NCBI GenBank assembly: GCA_017937765.1
Contig: JAGBCY010000029.1
Span: forward strand, 1 to 49,241
DNA length: 49,241 nt
Direction of reading: 5' to 3'
DNA from: Alistipes sp.
GTDB lineage: Bacteria; Bacteroidota; Bacteroidia; Bacteroidales; Rikenellaceae
The position numbers and the translations under genes were made by a program. Under the pieces are notes generated by a model. The model was not told the origin of the DNA and ran no database searches. It saw only the letters and a program-made list of their open reading frames with translations. Positions 3,975 through 46,230 of the stretch are shown here, piece by piece (position 1 is the first letter of the stretch; each line of letters starts with the position of its first letter).

Positions 3975-5153
3975 TTATAATGCACCCAAACCCCGCGCCT
4001 CTATCTCGGCAATCACCTCGTTCGTCAGATGCGTCCAGCGGCCGACAATCACACCCTCCGTATCGACGAGCATAAAGCAGGGAATCTCCTCCACGCCATA
4101 AGCCAACGAGAGGTCGGCCTGCTCGGGGAAGTAGTAGCTATCGGCATCGTTGGGGCGACTAACTCTTAACTGTGGCCACGCATCGAGGTCGTATTGCTCC
4201 ACCGCCTCGCGCCACTCCGTCTCATCGTGGTCTACCGACACACTAATAATCTGCAACCCCTCGCCAAACATCTCATTGAGCTCTTTCACACGCGGTATCT
4301 CGCCAATGCAGGGGCGACACCAACTCGCCCAAAAGTCGAGAAGAACAAAGCCCCGGGCATAGCACTCCGAGAGGCGCACTACCCCACCGCGCACCTCCTC
4401 GAGTGCAAAGTCCAAGGCGCAACCTCCTACACTGCCTCCGCACGTCTGCGCTATATCGCGCTTAATGGCGAGCAGTTCTCCCATTGCACTATCGCGTTGC
4501 ACGTCCGAGAGATTATCGTACAACGCCTCCACCTCGCCATACTCAACAAGCCCCGCAATAATATTTGGCACAATCTTATAGTCGGGATGAGTCCGAACAA
4601 ACTCCTCGGCCAGCTCCGGCCAACGTGCCGCTATGGCGTGATGCTCCAACACAAGGGCATAAAACTCCGCCCATAGCTCGTCTACATTCTCTGCGCCGCT
4701 ATCATAGGCTGCCACCCACGCCATATTCTTCAACTGCACCTGATGTAGTAACTCATAAATTACCTTGTCGTACCCTCCAAATGCCACATTGTATTCAGCG
4801 ATCTCATCGCCTATACTCAGCCCCTGCAACGTATAGTCGTAGAGAGCATCACGCTCCGCGCTGAAGGATATGCGCGACGGCTCGATATAGATCTTGGCAT
4901 AGTCCATATTCTCGAAGTGCAGATACGCAGGCACGACATCCTCAACAACACCCTCAAAGCTAAACGAGCCATTCTCAACATAGGCGGTATCCACCTGCTC
5001 ATACCACGTGTCACCCCGCTTCATAGGATACGACAGACAGACCATCTCGCCCTCCTCGGCACCACCGAGTCTACCCTCAAGTGTAAATCTCGCATCATCC
5101 CTACCGCACGCCACGCCCAAAAGCAGCGCGCACCAAATAATACTCTTTCGCAT
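3975..5153 (-). CDS. TlpA/ResA-like thioredoxin lipoprotein with DUF4369-like N-terminus
   Basis: A 392-residue lipoprotein: MRKSIIWCALLLGVACG gives a lipobox with Cys16. Residues 22-115 form a beta-rich DUF4369-like domain (FTLEGRLGG, GSFSFEGVVED, ISFSAE), 120-250 a helical linker, and 255-392 a TlpA/AhpC-like thioredoxin fold with FWASWCRPC (active cysteines C279 and C282) and a cis-Pro loop GVEEIPCFMLVD. Such Bacteroidetes proteins are tethered in the periplasm and reduce or rearrange disulfides during envelope maturation. The extra Cys after the cis-Pro is unusual but harmless. It stands alone on the minus strand; no TAnnTTTG box is evident in the A+T-rich 5154-5230 region, which contains a run of alternating T and A. 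Confidence 0.9.
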   Translation of the reverse strand: MRKSIIWCALLLGVACGRDDARFTLEGRLGGAEEGEMVCLSYPMKRGDTWYEQVDTAYVENGSFSFEGVVEDVVPAYLHFENMDYAKIYIEPSRISFSAERDALYDYTLQGLSIGDEIAEYNVAFGGYDKVIYELLHQVQLKNMAWVAAYDSGAENVDELWAEFYALVLEHHAIAARWPELAEEFVRTHPDYKIVPNIIAGLVEYGEVEALYDNLSDVQRDSAMGELLAIKRDIAQTCGGSVGGCALDFALEEVRGGVVRLSECYARGFVLLDFWASWCRPCIGEIPRVKELNEMFGEGLQIISVSVDHDETEWREAVEQYDLDAWPQLRVSRPNDADSYYFPEQADLSLAYGVEEIPCFMLVDTEGVIVGRWTHLTNEVIAEIEARGLGAL

Positions 5154-5297
5154 AAGGTTGTATAGATTATTGTTTACACATATTTATATATATATAACGC
5201 CCTCGTGCGGCTTTTATTATACGGTTCTAATCTTTTCACGATATTTATGCAATATGCTAAAAATTAGCACCCACGATGTTATTTTTCCACCTCAAAA

Positions 5298-5328
5298 TTT
5301 GGAAAATTCGCGGGGGGGGGTAATTTTG
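5298..5328 (+). promoter_or_regulatory. Promoter with a nine-G spacer tract (possible phase-variation switch)
   Basis: TTTG at 5298-5301 and TAATTTTG at 5321-5328 are separated by exactly 19 bases, matching the Bacteroidetes promoter spacing. The last nine bases of the spacer (5312-5320) are all G. A gain or loss of one G would alter the spacing between the two boxes and so, in principle, promoter strength. The lipoprotein ATG follows at 5358. Confidence 0.75.
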
Positions 5329-5357
5329 CAGTAGCAAATCAAAAAACAATATTTATT

Positions 5358-5804
5358 ATGAAAAGACTTATTTACGGCCTAATGGCACTCGCGCTTGTTG
5401 CGTGCAACACTAAGGATGACGACCAGTTCAAGGCAGACGTCGGCACCTACGCCTTTAAGCAGAGCGAGATTATTGTCAACGCCTCGGGAAGTGACAGTTT
5501 CCGCCTTGAGGCATACTACATCGACGAGCCCGACGCATCGCTACGCGGCACCTTCAAATTCCGCGTCAACGAGGAGCTATCAACACCCAACTGGGAGCAA
5601 TATTTTGTGGTTGCTCCATTTGGCTATATGATTATGGAGGAGGCCGAGGATGGCACGTTCTTTAGCGACATCAGCATCTGGTCCGATAAGGTCGATAAGG
5701 AGGTCGTTGTCATCTTGGACACATTCCTCGGCTACAACGATACGGCAGTAGACACCGATGGCAACCGTCCCATCAACGAGCTCACCATCCGCCTACGCCC
5801 CTAA
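5358..5804 (+). CDS. Small outer-envelope lipoprotein of unknown function
   Basis: A 148-residue protein. MKRLIYGLMALALVACNTKDD is a lipoprotein signal with the lipobox Cys at residue 16, followed by an acidic KDDDQ stretch of the type that favours export to the Bacteroidetes cell surface. The mature part is predicted beta-rich (SEIIVNASGSDSFRLEAYYI, GTFKFRVNEE, ISIWSDKVDKEVVVILD) and contains no catalytic motif or Cys. It resembles the small DUF4843-like lipoproteins sometimes found with SusC/D loci, but no such locus adjoins it. It has its own promoter with a G9 spacer and ends before a strong terminator, so it is a single-gene unit. Function unknown; a phase-variable surface protein is an inference from the promoter. 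Confidence 0.8.
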   Translation: MKRLIYGLMALALVACNTKDDDQFKADVGTYAFKQSEIIVNASGSDSFRLEAYYIDEPDASLRGTFKFRVNEELSTPNWEQYFVVAPFGYMIMEEAEDGTFFSDISIWSDKVDKEVVVILDTFLGYNDTAVDTDGNRPINELTIRLRP

Positions 5805-5834: not shown

Positions 5835-5862
5835 AGACTCCGCCAAACAAAGCGCGGAGTCT
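5835..5862 (+). terminator. Hairpin terminator after the small lipoprotein gene
   Basis: AGACTCCGC (5835-5843) pairs perfectly with GCGGAGTCT (5854-5862) around a ten-base loop, 30 bases after the stop at 5804. Only a short, interrupted T-tract follows (ATTTGC). Confidence 0.65.
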
Positions 5863-5863
5863 A

Positions 5864-5895
5864 TTTGCATAATAGAAAAAGAATCGCTAAATTTG
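5864..5895 (+). promoter_or_regulatory. Promoter of the S41 protease gene
   Basis: TTTG (5864-5867) and TAAATTTG (5888-5895) are 20 bases apart, a close match to the Bacteroidetes consensus. The ATG at 5938 follows after about 42 bases. An upstream in-frame ATG at 5902 lies only seven bases past the -7 box, near the expected transcription start, and is therefore unlikely to be used. Confidence 0.7.
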
Positions 5896-5937: not shown

Positions 5938-7428
5938 ATGAAACGTATATTCATACTCTTTGCCGTAGCACTTATGGGCATCGTTGTGAGTAGTGCGCAA
6001 AATATCCCCTCGGTACACAACGACGACGTCGAGCAGTCGCGCAAATATCTCCGTGGCAACGACTATCAACGCGATCTGCTTCTCTATGTCGATATGCTCA
6101 CCAAAACACACCCCTACTATGCCGACGCCAAGCAGCGGGCAGAACTAAACAGGCGACTGCACACGATGCATAAGGAGTGTGGCGACATCACTGATCTTGC
6201 TATATTTAGAGCCTACTTGGAGCAGATAGCCTCGTCGCTAAACGATGGACACACGATGGTATCCTACTGGAATAAACCCGATAGGCTGTTTCCCGTAAGG
6301 CTCTCGTTCTCGGACGATACTATTGCCATCATTGAGGTTGCCCCCGAATATCAAAATACACTACTTGGCAAAGAGGTGACGGGCATCAACGGTAAGTCAT
6401 TAGCTGAGATACTCCGCTTAGCAGCCCCGCTTATCAGTGCAGATAACGAGGTAAACTTCCGAAACATTGCGAAGGAGTATATGATGATATCCGAGTTCTG
6501 GTCGTTACTCGGAATGAGCGATGACACACTCGAACTCACGCTTACAGATGGCACCATAACCGAAGTTGCCGCCGTAAGCAAAAGCCAGCTAAAGATAGTT
6601 CAGCTACAAAAGAATACGGCAAACCGTATTACGGCTCAGCGCGGTGTACTCTTCGATTACAACATCTTTGAGGATGAGAGCATTTGCTATCTTCAGTTCA
6701 ACCAATTTGCCGATAGAGTAACACACCCTCAGTACCCTCAGTTAGCGCGATTCGACGAGTTTGTCTGCGAAATGATGCACGAGATGCGCGAGAAAGAGGT
6801 TAGGACGTTGGTTATAGACCTGCAATATAACGGTGGTGGCAATAGCACACTTGGCGACGTGCTTCTCTCGTGGCTACACCCCTACCGTGATATAAGACAA
6901 GGTTCGGGAGAGCTGAGGATGTCGGAACTGCTATGCGAGCACTATCCCCACTATCGTGAATGTACGTTGGAGGGCGAGCCATTAGAGATGGGTAAAATCT
7001 ACCAGCTGCGAGACTTCGATAGGAGCGGAGAGGACAATGAGGCTGACTATACCGCAGAGCAGGACTCAACGAAGCACATCCTAAACTTCAACGACGAGCA
7101 CATCTTCCGTGGCAACGTGATCTTTGTCGAGGGTAAGGACTCCTTCAGCAGCGCGACACTACTGCTAACTACCGCACGCGATAACGGCATAGGCATCATC
7201 GTGGGTGAGATATCTGGCGGCCGCCCCTCGCACTATGGCGATATACTCTACTGTATGCTACCCAATACCCAAACCATAGCCACCGTAAGTCATAAGTTCT
7301 TCGTGCGTCCCAACCAGGAGTTGAAGGATTTAGAGTATATCTACCCCGATTACGTTGTAAAGCTCAACGACCCCAATCGCGATCTTCTCTGGGAGTGGAT
7401 CGTGGAGAATTACGGGGCTAAGAAGTGA
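5938..7428 (+). CDS. S41-family (C-terminal processing-like) serine peptidase
   Basis: A 496-residue exported protein; MKRIFILFAVALMGIVVSSAQ is a Sec signal peptide, which decides the start at 5938 over the longer frame at 5902. S41 hallmarks are LNDGHTMVSYW, VRTLVIDLQYNGGGNSTLGD (the strand-GGG loop) and VEGKDSFSSATLLLTTARD, where the Ser of SFSS is the expected nucleophile, followed by GEISGGRPSHYGD. An N-terminal helical domain precedes the fold and no clear PDZ domain is visible, as in tricorn-core/IRBP-like members common in Bacteroidetes. It probably cleaves peptides in the periplasm. It has its own promoter and is a single-gene unit, converging on umuC. The family is clear; the substrate is unknown. 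Confidence 0.9.
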   Translation: MKRIFILFAVALMGIVVSSAQNIPSVHNDDVEQSRKYLRGNDYQRDLLLYVDMLTKTHPYYADAKQRAELNRRLHTMHKECGDITDLAIFRAYLEQIASSLNDGHTMVSYWNKPDRLFPVRLSFSDDTIAIIEVAPEYQNTLLGKEVTGINGKSLAEILRLAAPLISADNEVNFRNIAKEYMMISEFWSLLGMSDDTLELTLTDGTITEVAAVSKSQLKIVQLQKNTANRITAQRGVLFDYNIFEDESICYLQFNQFADRVTHPQYPQLARFDEFVCEMMHEMREKEVRTLVIDLQYNGGGNSTLGDVLLSWLHPYRDIRQGSGELRMSELLCEHYPHYRECTLEGEPLEMGKIYQLRDFDRSGEDNEADYTAEQDSTKHILNFNDEHIFRGNVIFVEGKDSFSSATLLLTTARDNGIGIIVGEISGGRPSHYGDILYCMLPNTQTIATVSHKFFVRPNQELKDLEYIYPDYVVKLNDPNRDLLWEWIVENYGAKK

Positions 7429-7497: not shown

Positions 7498-8763
7498 TCA
7501 CTTAACCGTTACACTCGGAATATCGCTCCACTTCGTAGTATAGTGGGGCGATTGCTTTTCGCTCGACGACAAGATGCGGCCACTACCCTGCACTGCAAAC
7601 TTTACCGTGCCTTTGCCAAACGCACTATTCACCGCATCGACCACCGACGTTAGTTTATGTTCTCGTTCCACGGCCTCACGGTCCTCAAAGAGCGAGTGCA
7701 TAACACTCTCCGCCGGAATGATGTGCGTGGCCACAACACCCGCCTTCTTATAGCCATAACCTCGGCGATAGAGCTCACGCGTTGCCGCCACCGCCCGCGT
7801 CACAATCACACGCTGGTCGTTGGTCGCCGCTGGCAGGTGTACGAGCTGCGTGCCATACATCTGGGGTGCATTGTCACGAAAGCGATTCGTGTAGGCAAAC
7901 ACCGTCAGCTCCGAGGCTGCAGAGCCCTGCTTCCTGAGCTTCTCGGCCACGGTCGATGCGAAGTTTGCCACCTGCTCCGTAAGCACTGCGACGTCGGATA
8001 TCTCCTCTGAGAAGCTACGCGATACGCATATCGACTGCTTAGCCTCGAAGCCATCCTCGAACTCTATACACGCCTCACCTCGGAGCTCCTTCCACGTCCT
8101 CACGCCCGTGATGCCCATCATATTTCTCACAACACCCTCTTCAAGCCTCGTATAGTCATAGGCCGTAAGGATGCCTATGTCCTTAAGTTTCGGTGCCGAG
8201 CGTCGACCAATACCCCACACATCCTCTATCGGATAACGGCGTAGTACCTTTTCGATATCCTCAGGGCGGTGCATATAACACCCACCCTTGAGCTTGGGAT
8301 ACTGTTTACAGAGTTTCGAGGCAATCTTTGCGAGGGTCTTTGTAGGAGCAATACCCACGGACACAGGGATGGAGGTTAGCTGCCAGCAACGTCGCGATAT
8401 ACTCTTGGCATAGCTATCGAAATCCACGCCTTGCAACCCGCGCAGATCGAGGAATGCCTCGTCAATGGAATATACCTCGATGGAGGGTGCAAACTCCTCC
8501 AACACCCACCGCACGCGTTGCGACATATCGCCATAGAGAGCCATATTTCCAGAGAATACCGCGACGTTTTGCCGCTCGACTATATCGCGTATCTTGAAAT
8601 AGGGAGCACCCATCTTTATGCCGAGAGCCTTAGCCTCGTTCGAGCGCGCAATAGCACACCCGTCATTACTCGAGAGCACAATGACAGGTCGCCCTTGCAA
8701 ATCGGGTCGAAAGACACGCTCGCAGGAGGCAAAGAAGTTATTGCAATCGGCAAGGGCAAACAT
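7498..8763 (-). CDS. umuC: DNA polymerase V catalytic subunit UmuC
   Basis: A 421-residue Y-family polymerase, the usual UmuC length. DCNNFFASCERVF at the N-terminus holds the first catalytic Asp and steric-gate region, VYSIDEAFLDL the catalytic Asp-Glu pair, VSVGIAPTKTLAKIASKLCK the palm motif, and DVWGIGRRSAPKLKDIGI the thumb HhH. The C-terminal region (residues about 235-345) is the little-finger domain and the end is DUF4113-like. Together with UmuD' it performs error-prone translesion synthesis. It starts four bases after the umuD stop, so the two are translationally coupled. Transcription presumably begins upstream of umuD or the DUF1295 gene; no LexA-box-like palindrome was recognised. 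Confidence 0.95.
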   Translation of the reverse strand: MFALADCNNFFASCERVFRPDLQGRPVIVLSSNDGCAIARSNEAKALGIKMGAPYFKIRDIVERQNVAVFSGNMALYGDMSQRVRWVLEEFAPSIEVYSIDEAFLDLRGLQGVDFDSYAKSISRRCWQLTSIPVSVGIAPTKTLAKIASKLCKQYPKLKGGCYMHRPEDIEKVLRRYPIEDVWGIGRRSAPKLKDIGILTAYDYTRLEEGVVRNMMGITGVRTWKELRGEACIEFEDGFEAKQSICVSRSFSEEISDVAVLTEQVANFASTVAEKLRKQGSAASELTVFAYTNRFRDNAPQMYGTQLVHLPAATNDQRVIVTRAVAATRELYRRGYGYKKAGVVATHIIPAESVMHSLFEDREAVEREHKLTSVVDAVNSAFGKGTVKFAVQGSGRILSSSEKQSPHYTTKWSDIPSVTVK

Positions 8764-46097: not shown

Positions 46098-46230
46098 TTT
46101 TATTTTCACCGTACAACGACACACCGAGAAAATATCAATAAATAATTCTCACATTAACACATTAGTAATCAATAATTTACCCCCCCCCGAAAATTACTTG
46201 ATTTAGGCGAATAGTTTTAAAAAGTTTTTG

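Follow-up and report, generated by a model that had tools for sequence, protein, structure and literature searches.

Promoter-spacer homopolymer phase variation is known from porA and fetA of Neisseria meningitidis, and the poly-G tracts of the Campylobacter phasome, surveyed with PhasomeIt, reportedly lie mostly in coding sequence and act by frameshift. For FetA, expression was high with an engineered 17-bp spacer (PMC4577077). In gut Bacteroidales, invertible promoters give on/off control of surface functions (PMC10939037, PMC11892184). Switching in gut Bacteroidota has been studied mainly as DNA inversion, and inversion searches would miss a slippage-based promoter set. In the parts of the open-licence PMC literature consulted, homopolymer-driven promoter switching was not reported for either Alistipes or Bacteroidota.

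Here, we describe a G-tract promoter in a 49,241-nucleotide stretch of Alistipes sp. DNA, the whole of which we call the window. Comparing this site with related sequences, we put the probability at roughly three in four that it represents slipped-strand promoter-spacer phase variation of the porA/fetA kind in Bacteroidota, and that it belongs to a set of such promoters found genus-wide before surface-protein genes. The G9 run, lying within the spacer of a promoter of the Bacteroidota primary-sigma type, would be prone to slippage; whenever replication added or removed a single G, the distance from -33 to -7 would be altered, and with it the transcription of the downstream lipoprotein gene. 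We infer both slippage as the cause of length change and its effect on transcription.

Promoter anatomy and gene context

A preliminary description had placed a nine-G run exactly in a promoter spacer, and this anatomy was confirmed: the site reads TTTG-N19-TAATTTTG, the G9 forms the last nine spacer bases, and a lipoprotein-like open reading frame (ORF) lies downstream (Table 1). With boxes assigned by sequence, the site has the TTTG near -33 and the TANNTTTG at -7 of a Bacteroidota primary-sigma promoter, the type described for Bacteroides (PMC7366714). The distance from TAATTTTG to the lipoprotein ATG at 5358 is 29 bases. We found no inverted repeats of at least 11 bp in window positions 4800-5700 (901 bases around the site), and DNA inversion was rejected at this site, which lacks the repeats of an invertible promoter (inverton).

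Table 1. Features of the window promoter and its surroundings, and copies of the conserved RNA at other loci. Plain coordinates refer to the window; those with an L prefix refer to the named locus.
Feature	Position	Strand	Basis or remark
TTTG box (-33)	5298-5301	+	Read directly from sequence
Extended -33 element AAAATTTGGAAAATT	5294..5308	+	Near-invariant across consensus of 86 class I sites
Promoter spacer, 19 nt, GAAAATTCGCGGGGGGGGG	5302..5320	+	Ordinary genus promoters keep N19-N20, TTTGG ones N20
G9 tract, proposed slippage site	5312..5320	+	G7-G11 at related sites
-7 element TAATTTTG (motif TANNTTTG)	5321..5328	+	Motif as described for Bacteroides (PMC7366714)
Lipoprotein-like gene, 148 aa, proposed switched gene	5358..5804	+	ORF; homologues in genus
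Perfect 9-bp hairpin 3' of lipoprotein gene, without T run; possible transcript end	5835..5862	+	
Ordinary promoter of next gene, TTTG-N20-TAAATTTG, without G run	5864..5895	+	
S41 peptidase-family gene (Peptidase_S41)	5938..7428	+	Pfam
Conserved RNA	L277:1404-1500	-	Second-layout locus, G9 spacer
Conserved RNA	L355:631-729	+	Second-layout locus, G9 spacer
Conserved RNA	L356:631-728	+	Second-layout locus, G9 spacer

Because the next gene has an ordinary promoter of its own just after the 9-bp hairpin, the G-tract promoter most likely serves only the 148-aa lipoprotein gene. A terminator search listed no terminator-like site for the hairpin region, and no Pfam family matched the 148-aa product. 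Homologues of this lipoprotein were present in eight of 180 genus genomes, its own included, and in one genome (G128) a G9 promoter stands just upstream of the homologue. Members of the S41 family, to which the next gene belongs, are found directly behind G-tract promoters in other species (a protein cluster of four). Two genes downstream, at window positions 7498-8763 (-), is a gene for an ImpB/MucB/SamB-family (IMS) polymerase.

The window holds four G8 matches (two G9 runs); shuffled sequences averaged 0.44, and none of 100 reached four. The other G9 run (46180-46188, -) has no such promoter boxes around it. Outside promoter boxes, G8-G9 runs adjoin short palindromic 'taaattgctgattatcag'-like sequences, as seen at 46180-46188 (-) in the window and at loci L025, L145 and L149.

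Recurrence across the genus and products behind the promoters

Searching 180 genus genomes for G7TANNTTTG, that is, seven or more Gs directly before TANNTTTG, returned 105 distinct sites in 67 genomes. The reversed pattern gave 3 sites and C7TANNTTTG gave 5 (1 for its reversed form). Ninety of the 105 share a common core, roughly cAnTTTtttgcCnaAAAATTTGGAAAATTCgt-Gn-TAAATTTGtAg (consensus of 86), and make up class I; class I counts exclude the 15 core-less sites. Within class I the -7 element is TAAATTTG at 72 of 90 sites and the window's TAATTTTG at 4, and the window's own genome has two class I sites. Across the order, G8TANNTTTG matched 16 of 393 genomes, the own genome included, versus 6 matches of the reversed control, and nearly all those sites were without the shared core; a general Bacteroidales feature is thus not supported. 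A G-blind search of the 180 genomes by the -33 half (ATTTGGAAAATTN6-20TANNTTTG; counts made by eye) found 75 places in 56 genomes. A G run was present in 57 of them and absent from 18, the latter with spacings of N20 (16) or N21 (2).

Two further G9 runs in the own genome lie at the opposite end of the spacer, adjoining TTTG. This second layout (TTTGN0-4G8N3-11TANNTTTG) was found in 64 of the 180 genus genomes, with no match for the reversed control. Elsewhere in the order it was found in none of 392 other genomes (the own genome being the only one of 393), and the reversed control gave 5. The genus search listed 107 places; two already in hand were omitted, and the remaining 105 correspond to 103 distinct sites, with tracts of G8-G11. 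Either pattern (the class-I-type search or the second layout) was present in 102 of 180 genus genomes. The shuffles, the reversed-pattern and poly-C controls and the second-layout control together reject a chance run.

The genes behind these promoters are biased toward secreted products. A readable ORF follows 87 of the 90 class I sites; 42 are lipoprotein-like, 41 have a signal-like start and 4 have neither. By a simple rule (hydrophobic stretch, lipobox, early K/R), secreted or lipoprotein products were called for 83/87 class I sites versus 29/74 ordinary promoters of the same loci (Fisher p 2e-15). The 87 products fall into 24 protein clusters. Among 20 representatives, Pfam identified M16 and S41 peptidases, a CarboxypepD_reg-like domain, an aspartyl protease with PDZ, Redoxin, DUF4377 and DUF4837, along with below-cut-off matches to BACON and fn3; for seven there was no family. 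Behind second-layout promoters, 78 of 97 ORFs were secreted/lipoprotein-positive, and 11 of the other 19 belong to the conserved-RNA loci described below.

Several class I promoters have upstream sequence in common though different genes follow (334-1498 nt shared with L204, less elsewhere). The loci with shared upstream sequence, a class I promoter and different surface-type genes are L204, L209, L063, L096, L116, L132 and L139, and their genes look as if swapped behind the shared part. By eye, though named by no search, the shared sequence is a candidate for the end of an FtsX/MacB-type permease gene. At L045 and L048, core-less G-run TANNTTTG sites precede ORFs resembling, again by eye, UpxY-type antiterminators of capsule loci.

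Conservation of the core beyond TTTG exceeds what a bare promoter requires, as would also be expected of a regulator site. An alternative reading is a fixed regulon, in which a single regulator or alternative sigma factor recognizes the extended core together with its G run, the run being a binding or shape feature and no switch. The conservation of AAAATTTGGAAAATTC well past TTTG and the likeness of the products in being secreted speak for this reading. We nonetheless consider it unlikely, as run length varies from 7 to 11 in class I and differs between otherwise identical copies, shifting the boxes; moreover, in the second layout the run lies at the opposite spacer end, and ATTTGGAAA is also common in G-free promoters.

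One second-layout group precedes a conserved RNA of ~90-105 nt (one longer) instead of an ORF. CTGGGATGNNGACGCAACTCAC is almost invariant in it, its 3' hairpin resembles a terminator, and 6 of 21 predicted pairs showed changes on both sides in 11 sequences. The RNA is found behind G9-spacer promoters in several species, its copies having originally been gathered through the G pattern. Rfam gave no match at the gathering cut-off; a permissive search with one RNA locus gave below-cut-off matches only, the best on the opposite strand. The RNA model matched 7 of 71 genus genomes, four of them strongly with eight copies, and the own genome was not among them. Six of the eight strong copies had gone into building the model. 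The remaining two were newly found: L382, which lacks a G run, and L388, whose upstream side is cut off by the contig end. With one 5S gene among 11 loci, an origin of this non-coding group in rRNA promoters found no support. The element is a possible switched RNA.

Scanning genome_contigs for TTTGGAAAN4-9G7TANNTTTG retrieved 91 stretches, most titled as Alistipes, Rikenellaceae or Tidjanibacter MAGs from ruminant hindgut. For the relatives, these record titles bear out the gut Bacteroidetes host proposed in the preliminary description. Also matched were Phaeodactylibacter xiamenensis KD52 (3), TSM_CSS, TSM_CSM, Prado048 (G13), UBA2322 (2, with a third similar site beside one), one bin and some Bacteroidales MAGs. 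Since the pattern forces TTTGGAAA, the scan says nothing on conservation of that part. Misbinning or chance may explain the matches titled Lachnospiraceae, Bacteroidaceae, Paludibacteraceae, Phycisphaerales and Patescibacteria; L244 (titled Bacteroidaceae) and L209 (titled Lachnospiraceae) carry Alistipes-like sequence and are thus probably misbinned. Phage cargo was rejected, as the same scan in IMG/VR (viral_contigs) returned 0 stretches.

Tract length, box spacing and differences between copies

As assembly consensus calls, mostly from MAGs, tract lengths of G7, G8, G9, G10 and G11 were seen at 3, 19, 76, 6 and 1 of the 105 sites, and at 3, 17, 64, 5 and 1 in class I. Length sets the -33/-7 spacing one for one over this range: sites with the common 10-nt non-G part had spacings of N17 to N21 in 1, 14, 47, 2 and 1 cases. 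Among the fetched loci, ordinary promoters were most often spaced N19 (42) or N20 (45), the next highest value between N10 and N30 being 14 at N12, and those with TTTGG had N20 in 19 cases versus N19 in 2. G-free ATTTGGAAA promoters, taken from 150 strings among the matches listed (more exist), had N20 in 74 of 129 cases, N18, N19, N21 or N22 in 37 and N11-N14 in 18. Length changes in the G tract thus move the boxes around a constrained distance, in keeping with the proposed switch, whose run sets the distance between two boxes that otherwise keep a closely maintained spacing.

Class I promoters with TTTGG (n=82) had N19 in 47 cases, N18 in 21 and N20 in 4, and second-layout spacing peaks at N18 (62/103). 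Compared with the spacing of ordinary promoters, the commonest assembled state is therefore one to two bases short. We infer that this commonest state (G9, one base short) would be weak or off and G10 stronger; G-rich DNA may shift the spacing optimum. The dominance of G9, even where the non-G spacer part differs, is as compatible with a mutational balance as with a switch.

The tract could also be hypermutable but silent, if the promoter tolerates changes in length or another promoter drives the gene. Assembled-genome tract lengths leave spacings of N17-N23, as such tolerance would allow. This reading is improbable given how tightly the genus's ordinary promoters keep their spacing, and given that many species retain the G run at this one position ahead of surface genes.

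Natural length differences were found between near-identical copies of related promoters, in one cross-sample and one within-genome pair. In the former, the only cross-sample pair found with identical flanks and a changed tract, L180 (JAFXBB010000101.1, sheep rectum) and L244 (JAFWBM010000013.1, sheep colon co-assembly) aligned over 6720 positions and had G8 versus G9. Their 9 mismatches all lie within the last ~150 bases, leaving ~6.5 kb otherwise identical; the first 6550 bases of L180 hold two T6 runs and no other G or C run of at least 6. In genome G004, two contig ends (L293 and L317, on contigs C4 and C5) have 133 identical bases before the tract and 109 after it, and G10 versus G8. They share the promoter and signal sequence and then encode different proteins, and the pair could be a duplication or cassette exchange.

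More broadly, tract length differed in 26 of 55 distinct related pairs (at least 85% identity over at least 250 nt), which include paralogues and pairs alike mainly upstream and are not independent. Before one pair was removed as the same contig twice (L205/L086), the fraction differing among 56 pairs was 0.46, while independent draws gave 0.44-0.49; tract length thus shows little memory of descent. Short-read assemblies are described as unreliable at such homopolymer tracts (PMC4577077). Most of these genomes are MAGs, yet a sequencing or assembly artefact, such as the poly-G of two-colour chemistry, is highly implausible for runs conserved on both flanks, on one strand only and across many projects, and with three such sites in the strain record of Phaeodactylibacter xiamenensis KD52.

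A proposed promoter-borne phasome and its relation to known switches

The homopolymer-driven promoter switch suggested in the preliminary description gains support from a promoter that recurs before many unrelated surface-protein genes and from lengths that differ between otherwise identical copies. Taking the results jointly, we lean slightly toward a wider reading, in which much of the genus (102/180 species genomes) would have a promoter poly-G phasome comprising, across both layouts, ~190 spacer tracts. As usually assembled, a tract would leave the spacing one base short of its working length, and a single +1 slip would turn the surface protein on; in some species such a promoter would precede a structured small RNA. 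Since distant Bacteroidota have similar promoters, the layout may be ancient or may have emerged several times.

Slippage switching would be readable from length mixtures in existing metagenome reads, and the set offers many concrete loci together with a prediction of the active tract length. It may also underlie variation in the surface that common gut commensals present to host and phage.

Like the invertible promoters of Bacteroidales, the proposed Alistipes switch would control surface functions at the promoter level; the variable element differs, being a G run without an inverted repeat of at least 11 bp in the surrounding 901 bases. With the Campylobacter phasome it shares many poly-G tracts of about nine per genus and mostly surface functions, whereas the Alistipes tracts lie in promoter spacers. 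The closest likeness in architecture is to Neisseria porA/fetA, with a homopolymer between two promoter boxes, surface proteins as products and tract length setting the spacing. The Alistipes set differs in belonging to another phylum, in its TTTG/TANNTTTG promoter type and in its two layouts, and, unlike porA and fetA, it places one near-identical core before many unrelated genes in many species.
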